Origin: a virus
Reading direction: 5' to 3' (one strand)
Length of the DNA: 37,842 nucleotides
Virus record (IMG/VR): IMGVR_UViG_3300031857_000558
Coordinates: 1-37,842 of that record
In this document: in pieces, positions 29,154 to 37,842 of the stretch
Layout: the number at the start of each line of letters is the position of its first letter
How positions within the stretch are numbered: the first letter of the stretch is position 1
Made by a program: the position numbers and the translations under genes
Notes under the pieces: model-generated
Told to the model about the DNA's origin: nothing
Seen by the model: only the letters and a program-made list of their open reading frames with translations
Database searches by the model: none

Positions 29154-30530
29154 ATGAAAGTTAATAACATTTGTATCTTTGGTGCAGGATCTGCTGGTTG
29201 GATAACTGCACTTTCTATAAAGTCGCATTTACCAGAGGTGAATGTAACTTTACTATCTTCCAATAAAGTTCCTACTATTGGAGTTGGAGAAAGCACACAA
29301 TTAGATCTTGTTGAATTACTCCATGGTGCTGGTATTAATGTTAATGATTTCATTCAACAAACTGATGCTACATTAAAACATGGAATTTATTACAAGAATT
29401 GGAATACCAAAGATTCAGAATATTGGCATGCATTTACAAATTTGACTGAAACTGGATATTATACACGTGCTCATTTGTATCATAAGTTTCATAATATGCA
29501 ACCAGAAGCATATCCTCTGAAAGATTATTATTCAAATGTTCATCCAAGTTATACGCAATGCGTAACTCATAATAGAAGTTCTTCTGACATGCCATTTGCT
29601 TTGCATGTCGATGCTTCTAAAATGGCAGAGTACTTGAGAAACTTCTTGACCCCACATATAACCATTATTGATTTTGACGAGTTTTCAGTTAATAAATCAT
29701 CAAACAAGATAGACTCTATTGATGTTGATGGTAACATCGTAACTGCAGATTTATATGTGGATTGTTCTGGATTCAATAGAGTTCTTGCTTCTCATATTGA
29801 TGGTTTTATTGAGGATAATTATGATTCTAATGTTAACTCTGCTATTTTCGGTAGGGTTAATTATGGTTCAGTTATTAGAAATCCGTATACACTAGCTGAT
29901 GCTCAGGATTGTGGATGGATTTGGAAAGCACCACTACAAAGTAAAGTTGGTAGTGGATATGTGTTCAACGATAATTTCTGTGATGTTGAAACTGCTAAAG
30001 AACACTTCATTAAATATTGGGGTGGTTCAGTAAGAGAAGAAACAGTTCGCTCTGTTAAGTTCTCATCTAGTTCGTTGAAGAATCCTTGGGTTTCTAATGT
30101 GGTATGTAATGGTCTTTCAGCTGGGTTTGTAGAGCCATTAGAAGCCACTGGTATTTCTTGGTTTATACAAGGAGCTAAATCATTATGTAGAATTCTAAAG
30201 AATCGCTACTATGATGAAGATACGCAGATGAAACATAATTCTTTAATGCGTATGTACGTTGAGGATGTGCAAGATTTTGTTGATGTTCATTATTCTCTTT
30301 CACAAAGAAGAGATACTGAATTCTGGAGATACCAGACAAGCAGACCTAGAAGCGATAGGCTTATGGCAAGACTAGAGTTATATTCAAACCAAATGCCAAC
30401 TAAGAGTAACAGAGAAGGTTATAACTGGGCATTTAATGATGTTTCTTGGTTAGATATTCTAACAGGATATGGGTTTAAGATGAATACCAATAATATCCCA
30501 GAAGATATTAAATATACTTTTTATAGATAA
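29154..30530 (+). CDS. Flavin-dependent (tryptophan-type) halogenase
   Basis: The 458-residue product shows the FAD motif GAGSAG (10-15), GVGEST (43-48), FAD-contact DCSGF near 203, the halogenase motif WIWKAP (Trp255, Trp257) and GSGYVF. Compared from memory with PrnA, the catalytic Lys79 aligns with Lys75 (TLKHGI) and Glu346 with Glu330 (VEPLEATGI), so both active-site residues are kept. These enzymes use FADH2, oxygen and halide to halogenate aromatic rings. A cyanophage homologue, VirX1, iodinates many substrates in vitro. It sits between polymerase and uvsX with its own promoter, next to a thioredoxin. The natural substrate is unknown. It is shorter than PrnA or RebH (about 530). Confidence 0.93.
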   Translation: MKVNNICIFGAGSAGWITALSIKSHLPEVNVTLLSSNKVPTIGVGESTQLDLVELLHGAGINVNDFIQQTDATLKHGIYYKNWNTKDSEYWHAFTNLTETGYYTRAHLYHKFHNMQPEAYPLKDYYSNVHPSYTQCVTHNRSSSDMPFALHVDASKMAEYLRNFLTPHITIIDFDEFSVNKSSNKIDSIDVDGNIVTADLYVDCSGFNRVLASHIDGFIEDNYDSNVNSAIFGRVNYGSVIRNPYTLADAQDCGWIWKAPLQSKVGSGYVFNDNFCDVETAKEHFIKYWGGSVREETVRSVKFSSSSLKNPWVSNVVCNGLSAGFVEPLEATGISWFIQGAKSLCRILKNRYYDEDTQMKHNSLMRMYVEDVQDFVDVHYSLSQRRDTEFWRYQTSRPRSDRLMARLELYSNQMPTKSNREGYNWAFNDVSWLDILTGYGFKMNTNNIPEDIKYTFYR

Positions 30531-33548: not shown

Positions 33549-34850
33549 ATGGTAAAAGTTATTGTAGCAGATAGAAAACATGATTGTCAACACCTGCTTG
33601 GTCAGTTCGTTGATGAGAGTCACTATGACTTGTTGGTTGAAGAAGATTGTGACATTTATATGCCACTTCCTCCAGGTGCAGAGGAAACATATGGCGAAGA
33701 ACGTATCGTTTTTAAATTTCGCAAGAACTACTTCAGTAAAGAACAGCAAGACCAAGCATATGCTGGTTTACGGGAAGCTGCAATTGAAACGCAGAATCGT
33801 GGACTTGCAGCTGGACCACGTGGTGAAAAGCTAGGTAATCGTGAGTGGGTTACCGAGTATGAGTACGACATCGTTGATTACTTCTTGAAGCCATCTGAGA
33901 ATCTTTTTGGTGAAGATCCAATTGAAGAGATTCGCAAGAAGTATGCTGGTAAGAAACCAGAGATCTCTAATCGTGCACGTGTATGGTCTATTGATCGTGT
34001 GAAGAAAGAGAAGTTCAATTTCGAAGAATGGATTGAGCATGCTCGTAAACTATCACAAGATGATGCAAAGAAAGAAGCTGTTCACGTTGCTGAAGATCTA
34101 ATCTGCGCAACTACATACGCCAACTCAGTCAACTCTGGTATTGCTGGATGGTTTGATCGTTACCCACGTATTCCTTATGGTCGTGCGACAGCTTACACTG
34201 CCAAGAATCCAGAGAAGTTTGCCATGGCTTTCCCATTCCTACAGCAACTTGCTCAAGGATTTAAGGATCTTCTTCCATGGCGTTACAACAATCAGATGGA
34301 AGCTGCCAAGAAATTAGATCAATCATTCTTAGTTCCTGGAACTCCATTCACAACAGTGACTGTGAATAAAACATTCCGCACTGCTGCTCACTGTGATGCT
34401 GGTGATTTCACTGAAGGTTTGTCTAACCTGTTGACACTGTCTAATGATGGTAAGTATTCAGGTGGTTATTTGATTGCACCTGAGTATCGTGTTGCAGTTA
34501 ATGTACGTCCAGGAGACTTGCTACTGATTAACAATCACGAAGTTATGCATGGCAATACACCTATCGTTTGCGAAGAAGGATCTGAGCGTATCTCATTGGT
34601 AGTTTACTTCCGTGAGAAAATGCTTGAGTTGGGTAGCAAAGAGTATGAAGACTGTCGTTTTAACTTTGTTGAATCACGCAGACTAAACAAAGAGCATCCA
34701 GAGTGGCGTCATCTTTGGAATGGTGTATCAGCATCTATGTGGACATCTGATGAGTGGTATGAATACTGCGAAAGCAAACTGGGTCGTGAAACCTTATTGA
34801 AGTATCATCCAGAAGCTGAGAAAGCATCTTCACTTGAAGGATTCTTCTGA
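33549..34850 (+). CDS. TET/JBP-like 2OG-Fe(II) dioxygenase
   Basis: The 433-residue product has a C-terminal double-stranded beta-helix core. TTVTVNKTFRTAAHCDAGDF supplies His281 and Asp283, GKYSGGYLIAP is the middle strand, VRPGDLLLI follows, then His334 in EVMHGNTP and Arg347 in ERISLVVYF. The VN-x3-RTA-x-H-x-D-x-GDF pattern is what I know from trypanosome JBP1 and phage TET/JBP relatives, which oxidise thymine or 5-methylcytosine methyl groups in DNA. The N-terminal 250 residues are of unknown fold. The gene ends in a TGATG overlap with a glutamine amidotransferase. A protein hydroxylase of another 2OG subfamily is the main alternative. Confidence 0.82.
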   Translation: MVKVIVADRKHDCQHLLGQFVDESHYDLLVEEDCDIYMPLPPGAEETYGEERIVFKFRKNYFSKEQQDQAYAGLREAAIETQNRGLAAGPRGEKLGNREWVTEYEYDIVDYFLKPSENLFGEDPIEEIRKKYAGKKPEISNRARVWSIDRVKKEKFNFEEWIEHARKLSQDDAKKEAVHVAEDLICATTYANSVNSGIAGWFDRYPRIPYGRATAYTAKNPEKFAMAFPFLQQLAQGFKDLLPWRYNNQMEAAKKLDQSFLVPGTPFTTVTVNKTFRTAAHCDAGDFTEGLSNLLTLSNDGKYSGGYLIAPEYRVAVNVRPGDLLLINNHEVMHGNTPIVCEEGSERISLVVYFREKMLELGSKEYEDCRFNFVESRRLNKEHPEWRHLWNGVSASMWTSDEWYEYCESKLGRETLLKYHPEAEKASSLEGFF

Positions 34851-35545
34851 TGTGTAGCGTAATTGGTGCTGTAATCCAATCACCAACTAAGGATGATTTT
34901 GAAACCCTGCGTAGAGTTTTCCATGAGTCTAAGATTCGTGGTATGCATGCTACTGGGATTTCTATTGTTCTAAACAATAAAATTGTTACATTTAAAGAAT
35001 CAGTTCCTGCAGACAAGTTTAATCATTTGGACAATTTAGAAGAGATGGTCAATGAGGATGGTAATCTTTACCTCATTGGTCATTGCAGATATAGCACCAG
35101 TGACTTGGAATATAATCAACCAATGGCAGATGATACTAAAAGCATTGTTCACAATGGTGTCATCTCTCAAGAGTCTCCAGAGAAATGGAAAGACTTGTAT
35201 GGTTATGACTGCATGACTAAAAACGATAGCGAGTTAGTTCTTCACTCTAAAGATCCATTGAGAGAATATTCTAACATGTCAATGGGTGTATGTGAACTTT
35301 CGCTTGATAAGAAAGTTCGTTTCTATCGTAATGGCAAGCGTCCGATTTATTTTACTTTATTTAATAATGGATGTATAATTACTTCTACTAAAGACATTGC
35401 CAAACGTGCAGGTCTTGATATGCCAGTTGAAGTTCCTATGAATATGTACATGACAGTTGATGGTTACTTATCAATGAACATGGAAAGAGTTGATATTATT
35501 AATAAAGATTTGCAGGGGATAGAATATGAAACAGTACGCATCTGA
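34850..35545 (+). CDS. Class-II (Ntn) glutamine amidotransferase
   Basis: The 231-residue product begins MCSVIGA, so Cys2 becomes the N-terminal nucleophile after Met removal. It carries the family's GHCRYSTS and VHNGVIS strands and a later NDSELVL block. These domains release ammonia from glutamine for a partner synthetase. There is no synthetase domain fused here, but the next gene is an amidoligase, the natural acceptor. Translation is coupled to both neighbours (TGATG at the start and a 20-base overlap at the end). Confidence 0.93.
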   Translation: MCSVIGAVIQSPTKDDFETLRRVFHESKIRGMHATGISIVLNNKIVTFKESVPADKFNHLDNLEEMVNEDGNLYLIGHCRYSTSDLEYNQPMADDTKSIVHNGVISQESPEKWKDLYGYDCMTKNDSELVLHSKDPLREYSNMSMGVCELSLDKKVRFYRNGKRPIYFTLFNNGCIITSTKDIAKRAGLDMPVEVPMNMYMTVDGYLSMNMERVDIINKDLQGIEYETVRI

Positions 35546-36404
35546 TAAGTTTACATGGGGTTATGAGATTGAATGGGGTGATGTAGATCGTCGTTTGACT
35601 CCACCTGAACATCTTGGTAAATGGGAATTTGCTGAAACTGATATTGTAAACATTCATGAACCATTCAAGTATGTTGCTTGCGATCCCATGGGTACTGAAC
35701 CTTATATGGGTGGAGAGATTAACACCAAGCCGACTGCTACTTGGAAAGAGCAAGTAGATCGTGTGATGGAACTACATCAGTTCTTTGTTGATAATGGCAA
35801 TCAACCTTCTGCTTCTTGCGTCAATCATGGTCACCTTCATGTGTTTGTTCCAGGACTTAAAGATGATGTAGCTTCGTTAAAGAAGTTGGTTGCTTATATC
35901 AAAGCCAATCAAGCAGACACCATTGAGTCATGTTATGGTTTCTACGAGACTGGACAGATGAAAGGTTCCAAGGGTGCTAAGATGTATCTCAAGTATGATG
36001 GTGGTCGTGAGATGCCAGAATACATGTGTGACAATATCATCAATCTAGCAACAGACTTTGAACACTTTATCAAGTTGCATGCTGCTGGTAAAGATGGTGT
36101 ATCAATGGGTCGTCCATTCCGCTACGCAATCAATACTTACTGTATGAAACACACAGGTACAATCGAGTTCCGCTGTTTCCGTTCATCAACTAAACGTGAC
36201 GAGATTGAAGCGCAGTTTCGTTTTGCAGAGAAGTTTATTGATGCTGCGCTAAACGATGGACCAAGTGTTAAAGAAATTCTTGCTGCAGATACCTACAAGT
36301 TCCCACCATTCGTTTGGGATCTTAATGAGTACATTGGATGGATCAATACAAAGTGGGATAAAGAGCGTGGCAACAAACAACGTGAATACCTTGCAGTTGC
36401 GTAA
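35526..36404 (+). CDS. Amidoligase (COOH-NH2 ligase, glutamine-synthetase fold)
   Basis: The 292-residue product matches the amidoligase enzyme family (PF12224 type): FTWGYEIEWGD with Glu14 and Glu16 for metal binding, GGEINTKP, the NHGHLHVFVPG strand (family form GLHVHV) and EFRCF. The reaction is ATP-dependent amide formation between a carboxylate and ammonia or an amine. It has an AGGGGA ribosome site. Its pairing with a glutamine amidotransferase and an acetyltransferase matches gene neighbourhoods that comparative genomics has predicted to build unusual peptides or conjugates. The substrate is unknown. Confidence 0.9.
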   Translation: MKQYASDKFTWGYEIEWGDVDRRLTPPEHLGKWEFAETDIVNIHEPFKYVACDPMGTEPYMGGEINTKPTATWKEQVDRVMELHQFFVDNGNQPSASCVNHGHLHVFVPGLKDDVASLKKLVAYIKANQADTIESCYGFYETGQMKGSKGAKMYLKYDGGREMPEYMCDNIINLATDFEHFIKLHAAGKDGVSMGRPFRYAINTYCMKHTGTIEFRCFRSSTKRDEIEAQFRFAEKFIDAALNDGPSVKEILAADTYKFPPFVWDLNEYIGWINTKWDKERGNKQREYLAVA

Positions 36405-36936
36405 ATGTTCCAGAGATGAATTTGTCGCAGCAATCACTGACGACAAAGCCGATGGTTTTGCCAAGACATTCAAAGCCAAAGCAGATATGCAAGAGCAGTG
36501 GGATGAATGTTATGGCGCATTTAATGACGATGGCGAATTGATGGGTGCAATTATTACTACTCTTGGAAAAACTAATCCAAGAGTGGCAAACCTACAACTT
36601 CTTCATACGTTCAACAAGCATCGTCGTAAAGGTGTTGCCAAAGAATTAACCTTAACTTCGTTTCAACTAGTCAGACTTGCTGGTGCAGTTTACTTTAGAG
36701 TTTCTGCAGAACCAGAAGCTGTTGCATTTTATGAAAGCATTGGGTTCAAGTTCTGGGGTAAACAAAAGAGTGGGTGTAGCCTGAGTATGTTTAAAGTTGC
36801 AGGCGATACTATTCCAGAAGGTATTTACGATGATAAAGATCCAGTCTTACATAAAGCACTTTATAGTGGTCGGAAGGGAAGCCTAGCCTTGTCCTACATC
36901 GTGCAAGAAAGTGTTGACTTAAATTCATTTCTGTAG
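36382..36936 (+). CDS. GNAT-family N-acetyltransferase
   Basis: The 184-residue product (from GTG) has the acetyl-CoA loop RRKGVAKEL in motif A, preceded by the strand RVANLQLLHTF, and the motif B region AVAFYESIGFKFWG typical of GNAT enzymes. The frame has no ATG near its start. I prefer the GTG at 36382, which lies 20 bases before the amidoligase stop; TTG codons at 36391 and 36397 are alternatives. The strong amidotransferase-amidoligase-GNAT linkage suggests it acylates the same product. Confidence 0.88.
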   Translation: MNTLQLRKCSRDEFVAAITDDKADGFAKTFKAKADMQEQWDECYGAFNDDGELMGAIITTLGKTNPRVANLQLLHTFNKHRRKGVAKELTLTSFQLVRLAGAVYFRVSAEPEAVAFYESIGFKFWGKQKSGCSLSMFKVAGDTIPEGIYDDKDPVLHKALYSGRKGSLALSYIVQESVDLNSFL

Positions 36937-36971: not shown

Positions 36972-37550
36972 ATGGCTTCCAATCATACCAAGGCATCTGC
37001 TATCACTGAACGTATTGCAGCTGAATACTTTTGGGAACAAGGTTATAAAACCAAATACTCTGGAATGAGTAAAAAAGTTTTTCTTCAAATGACTGAAGAT
37101 GGAGATTTATCTTTATCAAATGTTTTGGAAAATTTTATCACTCATATCAATCCAAAGAAAAAAAGATCCAACGAAACTGGCATGGATTTTACTGACAAGA
37201 GTGATGCTAAGTATATGTCAACTCGGATCAAAGTTGTCAAAACTAATCACACTAAAAAAGACGGCACAGTCTCGCATTATCAAACTAGAATGCTAAATTG
37301 CTGTCTGTCGGGTAAGTCACTACGCAATAAAGTTGGAACACTGCGAATAGCAATCACTGTTTATAATCCAGAAGATGACAAATGTAGCAGAGTTTTACTC
37401 GTACGTATTCCTTACCCTCAGTGGAATGATCTTACAGATAAAGGTGGTAATTTGAACTTCGAGTTCAATCTTGATGGCACTATGAAAGATAATCATTTTA
37501 AAAAATATGGTAGCTATGTATGTGATGATGTCACAGAATTTTGTAAATAA
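36972..37550 (+). CDS. Unknown protein, possibly nuclease-like
   Basis: The 192-residue product is basic. A helical N-terminus (AITERIAAEYFWEQGYKTKY) leads to the segment GMDFTDKSDAKYMSTRIKVV, where D-x5-D-A-K resembles the PD-(D/E)xK nuclease site, although the spacing is tight and I am not sure. The second half is beta-rich with TLRIAITVYN and RVLLVRIPYP. The ATG at 36972 is 30 bases after the -10, with a poor ribosome site. It overlaps the next gene by one base (TAATG), so it belongs functionally with that modification-type gene. Confidence 0.75.
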   Translation: MASNHTKASAITERIAAEYFWEQGYKTKYSGMSKKVFLQMTEDGDLSLSNVLENFITHINPKKKRSNETGMDFTDKSDAKYMSTRIKVVKTNHTKKDGTVSHYQTRMLNCCLSGKSLRNKVGTLRIAITVYNPEDDKCSRVLLVRIPYPQWNDLTDKGGNLNFEFNLDGTMKDNHFKKYGSYVCDDVTEFCK

Positions 37551-37842
37551 TGGATTATAGATCAAACGAAAATAGACGTGAAGCGTTCATTCGCTGGTAC
37601 GCATGGTCAATGAAATATGATGACTGTGATCCAGCGGTATGGGCTACGAACTATCTAAACAAACGATATGAACACAATGATGAACAGCGTTTATGGTTAG
37701 CTTGGCTTTACGGCAGCACCTACTACCTTCCAACTTCTTGGGTTCTCATGAATGAATTCCCAGACTTTGAGTTGGCAACAGTAGATCGTATTACCCAATG
37801 GAACACTGCCAACTACAAACGACTTCGTTATCAAACTGATAC
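37550..37842 (+). CDS. Start of a protein like alpha-glutamyl/putrescinyl-thymine pyrophosphorylase (amino acid:DNA transferase); 3' truncated
   Basis: The window ends inside this frame after 97 residues. The visible part reads RREAFIRWYAWSMKYDDCDP, then ANDEQ-type NDEQRLWLAWLYGSTYYLPT, then MNEFPDFELATVDRITQWN and YKRLRYQTD. This pattern recalls the phage family predicted as aGPT-Pplase or amino acid:DNA transferase, which in hypermodified phages attaches amino acids or polyamines to pyrophosphorylated 5-hydroxymethyl-pyrimidines in DNA. The match is from memory. The start overlaps the previous stop (TAATG). Confidence 0.75.
   Translation, partial: MDYRSNENRREAFIRWYAWSMKYDDCDPAVWATNYLNKRYEHNDEQRLWLAWLYGSTYYLPTSWVLMNEFPDFELATVDRITQWNTANYKRLRYQTD

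Follow-up and report, generated by a model that had tools for sequence, protein, structure and literature searches.

Phages M6, ViI and phiW-14 build on 5-hydroxymethyluracil (5-hmU) in their DNA via a phosphorylated intermediate, using a kinase, an enzyme of the ADDT (amino acid:DNA transferase) family and tailoring enzymes. The tailoring steps known for thymidine hypermodification are carried out by radical-SAM isomerases, pyridoxal phosphate-dependent decarboxylases, flavin lyases and acetyltransferases. The general logic, in which a kinase acts on 5-hydroxymethyldeoxyuridine (5-hmdU) before further modification, has been described (PMC6449724). In Rhodococcus phage Tonitrus, genes encoding ParB-like and TET-like proteins, aGPT-Pplase2 and a 5-hmU kinase have been proposed to form a hypermodification system (PMC11955845). 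Here we analyze IMG/VR record IMGVR_UViG_3300031857_000558 of a T4-like phage, the whole of which (37,842 bases) is referred to as the window. It carries a TET/JBP oxygenase gene followed by genes for a class II glutamine amidotransferase (GAT-II, or GAT), an amidoligase (AL) and a GNAT acyltransferase. We consider it likely that this operon directs TET-initiated hypermodification of thymine in DNA and that AL is one of its tailoring enzymes rather than a modifier of the cell wall or of proteins.

Operons of this type, with the kinase as seen in relatives of the window, share a TET, ADDT (aGPT-Pplase2) and kinase core with Tonitrus, Mycobacterium phage VioletZ and Caulobacter phage Cr30. In contrast to the window, the searched regions of Cr30 and VioletZ yielded no amidoligase or GAT; Tonitrus is known to us from the published description. 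M6, ViI and phiW-14 incorporate 5-hmdUTP and use the kinase 5-HMUDK, whereas in the window group TET would make 5-hmU within DNA, the kinase matches Ploopntkinase3, and tailoring would use GAT-II, an amidoligase and GNAT. The core is therefore already known, and what appears to be new is the GAT-II/amidoligase/GNAT tailoring, of which there may be earlier mention in the literature. We know of no role for a glutamine synthetase (GS)-type enzyme in the decoration of DNA bases.

Using AL alone as the query, we gathered 80 environmental loci with AL identities of 72–97%. The typical order is TET-GAT-AL-GNAT-(variable gene)-ADDT-kinase, and GNAT was present in all 80 loci, GAT in 77, TET in 72, ADDT in 67 and the kinase in 61, with gaps mostly at contig ends. 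The gene set is not a chance arrangement, since homologous genes are present in 80 loci. The TET gene has moved behind the kinase gene in L036–L038 and between the ADDT and kinase genes in L048 and L060, yet it stays in the cluster; this cohesion despite a shuffled order speaks for a shared pathway more strongly than an invariant order would. A survey centered on ADDT (49 loci, each preceded by 4.5 kb or more of upstream DNA) recovered TET in 47, GAT in 45 and the kinase in 43, but AL in only 16. The module is widespread, AL being encoded on 218 stretches of IMG/VR contigs. A profile scan of genome contigs with the AL alignment added one phage-like contig from a metagenome-assembled genome. 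A 3.6-kb contig (RGSB01000076.1), assigned to Actinomycetota, carries GAT-AL-GNAT and is most likely a phage fragment wrongly binned into an actinobacterial genome.

Two further genes complete the cluster. The right end of the window falls inside an open reading frame starting at 37550 that is 97% identical to its counterpart in locus L001; full-length relatives match ADDT (PF18724; for example E = 7e-24 in L010), which scores above the cut-off in 15 of 16 records. A PDB search with the ADDT profile of the window's group gave no match at E 0.1. In relatives, the gene after ADDT encodes a P-loop kinase (Ploopntkinase3, PF18751; E = 3.9e-11), above the cut-off in 15 of 17 records. The original prediction, made from the sequence of the window, described three overlapping genes for GAT-II, amidoligase and GNAT (34850–36936), coupled to the upstream oxygenase and possibly acting on a modified base. 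Coordinates and domain matches bear out the overlapping genes, with overlaps of 20 bp between GAT and AL and of 14 bp between AL and GNAT (taking as the GNAT start TTG 36391, chosen by its match to relatives); the oxygenase gene overlaps GAT by one base (TGATG). That prediction was right about these four genes; it missed ADDT and the kinase of the putative six-gene pathway because the sequence stops within ADDT. The proposal of a modified base is strongly supported, as ADDT and the P-loop kinase complete a predicted thymidine-hypermodification pathway. Triads lying regularly beside peptidoglycan genes and apart from the oxygenase had been named as evidence for a cell-wall role; in the window's family, the oxygenase is almost never missing.

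The residues expected for catalysis are preserved. In TET, H283, D285 and H336 (HxD...H) together with R349 are invariant in 25 sequences, those of Cr30 and phage DLP6 among them; with its metal and 2-oxoglutarate residues intact, TET is the predicted source of 5-hmU that hypermodification systems require. In DLP6 (L084 12001–13347), Cr30 (L085 12001–13329) and other phage records, the TET/JBP protein is annotated as "SNF2 DNA repair protein", apparently a misannotation. The GAT profile matches PurF glutaminase domains, and C2 (the N-terminal Cys nucleophile), R80, N102-G103 (oxyanion hole) and D126 show no variation among 27 sequences; locus L032, which has an in-frame stop at the coordinates used, was left out of this alignment. 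AL scores 17.0 bits against PF12224 (curated cut-off 22), and the ALs of relatives also fall below the cut-off. Its predicted structure (mean pLDDT 87.8) matches glutamine synthetases, YbdK, glutamate-cysteine ligase and PafA in the PDB (VIA Z about 9–10 over 170–226 residues). The fold is that of this superfamily, whereas sequence identity is only 9–15%; we thus class AL as amidoligase-like through its modeled fold rather than as a member of Pfam Amidoligase_2. Ratios of nonsynonymous to synonymous substitution (dN/dS) of 0.06–0.31, calculated against up to three relatives, indicate that TET, GAT, AL and GNAT are all under purifying selection.

A distant AL (26% identity) is encoded in the sequenced genome of phage Simon. 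Its neighbors are ADDT (E = 4.6e-15), HMUDK_hel (E = 1.3e-42), a weak match to HMUDK_HMUD1, Nmad5, a thymidylate synthase (TS)-like enzyme and a flavoprotein. Because its neighbors include ADDT, HMUDK_hel and the flavoprotein, AL recurs in what is, judged from its genes, an independently built thymidine-hypermodification cluster. Among solved structures, the Simon ADDT closely resembles an amino acid:DNA transferase (E = 1e-64) and the "Glycinyltransferase" 8z2m (E = 8.7e-61), and the flavoprotein closely resembles a "Flavin-dependent lyase" (E = 7e-62). We take the glycinyltransferase and lyase entries to come from the work of Wen (2024). Wen 2024, a paper cited in PMC11946847, reportedly ties glycyl-thymine and 5-NmdU to chemistry of the glycinyltransferase and flavin-lyase type. 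The Simon cluster thus resembles the window in pairing a homologous AL with ADDT; unlike the window, it has a TS-like route to 5-hmdU and a relative of the flavin-dependent lyase, with no TET or GNAT detected and, in a scan of the whole genome, no GAT. In window-type operons, the flavin lyase gave no significant match (best E 0.016).

In Vibrio phage 2.275.O (L082 7896–9008), another distant AL homolog adjoins QueF, a queuosine-type gene, GTP cyclohydrolase I and a small GAT-II gene. This may be a second base-modification setting, with a role for AL in deazaguanine modification of DNA. Homolog searches found no usable loci when started from the AL of 2.275.O or from the AL or ADDT of Simon, and the Cr30 ADDT matched only Cr30 itself and one fragment.

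AL is a swappable module of the operon. On a tree of ADDT from 92 operons, its presence changes at least six times, with six changes forced by well-supported branches. In operons that lack AL, the interval between GAT and ADDT is occupied by a different GNAT (GNAT2), and AL was absent from their entire contigs, which reach 154 kb. The 60 AL-containing operons carry the GNAT of the window (GNAT1) in 57 cases and a GNAT2-like protein in 3; GNAT2 accompanies all 32 AL-minus operons and GNAT1 none, these counts including related operons that are not independent. Since GNAT type tracks the presence of AL, these associations suggest that GNAT1 acts on the AL product. That operons alternate between AL plus GNAT1 and GNAT2 suggests variation of the mark by the phages, which an arms race with host nucleases would lead one to expect. 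Of 92 operons typed, 32 have GAT but no AL, and Simon has AL with no detected GAT. The originally predicted GAT-AL-GNAT triad is therefore not one functional unit, and on the basis of these same cases we rejected GAT as an obligate partner of AL.

What we observed is which genes are present, their folds and conserved residues, and how the genes are inherited together or exchanged; the chemical steps that follow are drawn from enzyme families and genomic context. ThyX would make ordinary dTMP, so that thymine goes into DNA, where TET/JBP would oxidize selected thymines to 5-hmU. The P-loop kinase would phosphorylate the hydroxymethyl group, and ADDT would replace the phosphate by an amine, supplied either by a free amino acid, as in characterized relatives, or by ammonia derived from GAT-II. 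Using ATP, the GS-fold AL would form an amide bond on this adduct, and GNAT1 would acylate the product; in AL-minus operons, GNAT2 would act on the shorter adduct. In Simon, glycine transfer and then the action of the flavin lyase would yield the base amine. The modification probably serves to shield phage DNA from host nucleases. If the pathway is correct, it extends DNA-base chemistry by ATP-driven formation of amides, through a GS-fold ligase, and by nitrogen drawn from glutamine, through a GAT-II glutaminase; it would also be a new means for phages to disguise their DNA and would give a likely function to one set of phage amidoligases that had been "orphans".

Two chemistries can be drawn within this pathway, and we regard each as a real possibility that falls short of being probable. 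In the one we prefer, AL joins a 5-aminomethyluracil-type amine to a small acid, either a carboxylic acid or an amino acid. This order, with the amine installed before AL acts, is favored because GAT occurs without AL and the Simon AL occurs without detected GAT. In the window group, the nitrogen donor for ADDT could be ammonia channeled from GAT-II rather than an amino acid. The product, built by the GS-fold ligase, would be a thymine whose side chain is acylated or peptide-like (uracil-CH2-NH-CO-R, with further acetylation), AL being an exchangeable module that alters the chemistry of the mark. In the other, held just as tentatively, ADDT adds an amino acid whose carboxylate AL amidates with GAT-II ammonia; the resulting carboxamide would replace the decarboxylation of other hypermodification pathways. 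The ADDT relatives are indeed glycinyl and amino acid transferases, the glutaminase residues of GAT-II are intact, and the decarboxylase family PF00282, the only such family searched for, is absent from the operon-bearing records searched. However, GAT is nearly as common in operons that lack AL, and the AL of Simon has no detected GAT partner anywhere in its genome. AL requires a carboxylate, and TET proteins elsewhere can oxidize their substrate that far; it is nevertheless highly improbable that TET over-oxidizes thymine to 5-carboxyuracil for direct amidation by AL in parallel to ADDT, as this would leave ADDT and the kinase unexplained and Simon has AL and no TET.

Other readings change the base or abandon DNA altogether. 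Phage TET proteins that act on 5-methylcytosine are known, and TET could oxidize 5-methylcytosine that comes from a methylase of the host or from one of the phage that escaped detection, with the remaining enzymes acting on 5-hydroxymethylcytosine. ThyX is encoded in the 168-kb relative (G001, locus L010; E = 2.8e-40) and in 9 of 11 large operon-bearing records; neither a TS-fold enzyme or dUMP hydroxymethylase nor a C5-cytosine methylase (PF00145) was found among 11 records tested, which are partial genomes and include the 168-kb one. Because ThyX is present and the other enzymes were not found, the gene content is suggestive of thymine entering DNA unmodified and being hydroxylated in place by TET. 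On this evidence we rejected cytosine, which we consider very unlikely; moreover, the known pathway with an ADDT-type enzyme and kinase works on 5-hmdU, as the family names imply (PMC6449724). A cell-wall role has its precedent in LUZ24-like phages (Bruynoghevirus), which carry genes for GAT, Amidoligase_2, COOH-NH2 ligase, ATP-grasp and GGCT proteins called a putative peptidoglycan module (PMC11945000, PMC3890496), and by analogy the triad could make an unusual peptide or modify peptidoglycan or a protein. Like the window, these phages have GAT-II and Amidoligase_2 genes near replication genes; unlike it, their module has a presumed cell-wall role and an amidoligase of another subfamily, barely alignable to the window AL (27-residue match, E 0.013), and profile searches of LUZ24 find neither TET nor ADDT. 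The window-type cluster is instead accompanied by ADDT and the kinase. A Pfam scan of ten neighboring window proteins shows no cell-wall family and none of the ATP-grasp, COOH-NH2_lig or GGCT partners that characterize a LUZ24-type module. From the LUZ24 comparison we rejected this explanation as well, and consider it a shade less credible than that of cytosine.

Several points weigh against thymine hypermodification as set out above. Modified thymidine in the DNA of this phage group is a prediction, and the 80 primary loci are all closely related (AL identity at least 72%). The kinase of this phage is assigned from relatives, since the window stops before its position, and its 5-hmU kinase activity is predicted. 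The choice of thymine over cytosine draws in part on the absence of a methylase from partial genomes, and a host methylase could supply 5-methylcytosine. AL is below its Pfam cut-off. Delivery of GAT-II ammonia to ADDT is our own proposal and rests on the occurrence pattern, and the simple view that GAT feeds AL is weakened by GAT without AL and by the Simon AL without GAT.

Table 1. Genes of the predicted modification operon in the window.
Feature	Coordinates	Strand	Basis
TET/JBP 2-oxoglutarate/Fe(II) oxygenase, predicted to convert thymine in DNA to 5-hydroxymethyluracil	33549..34850	+	PF12851, 2.4e-26
Stand-alone class II glutamine amidotransferase (GAT-II, glutaminase) domain, 231 aa	34850..35545	+	PF13522, 1.8e-8
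Amidoligase (AL), GS-fold carboxylate-amine ligase, Amidoligase_2-like, 292 aa	35526..36404	+	PF12224, 0.0056, and predicted fold
GNAT acyltransferase, subtype GNAT1 (AL-associated)	36391..36936	+	PF13673, 1.4e-10; alignment with relatives
192-aa protein with no family assigned, in the variable slot; pathway membership unproven	36972..37550	+	No Pfam or PHROG match
ADDT (amino acid:DNA transferase), N-terminal 97 aa, cut at the window end	37550..37842	+	phrog_3271, 4.2e-17

Genes for UvsX and a DnaB-like helicase lie upstream of TET, whose ATG start is preceded by an AAGGAG ribosome site that overlaps the end of dnaB. Farther upstream of uvsX, at 29154–30530, is a strong match to tryptophan halogenase (PF04820, E = 1.5e-90). 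None of the 80 related loci has a match to this gene, for which reason we do not count it in the pathway; it appears to be cargo specific to this lineage. The protein that occupies the variable slot of the window is present in only 3 of 80 loci. In relatives, this slot, which lies between GNAT and ADDT, is often filled by a protein of 420–450 amino acids whose N-terminus resembles homing endonucleases and which has a weak ParB-like domain (L001 11426–12736; L048 11690–12967); the hypermodification set of Tonitrus also includes a ParB-like gene. TET is 54% identical to that of the window in L005 and 77% in L006 and L007, while AL is about 90% identical, a difference that suggests exchange of the oxygenase independently of its neighbors. 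The 168-kb relative encodes a second 2-oxoglutarate/Fe(II) oxygenase (PF13640; L010 4325–4936) two genes upstream of uvsX.

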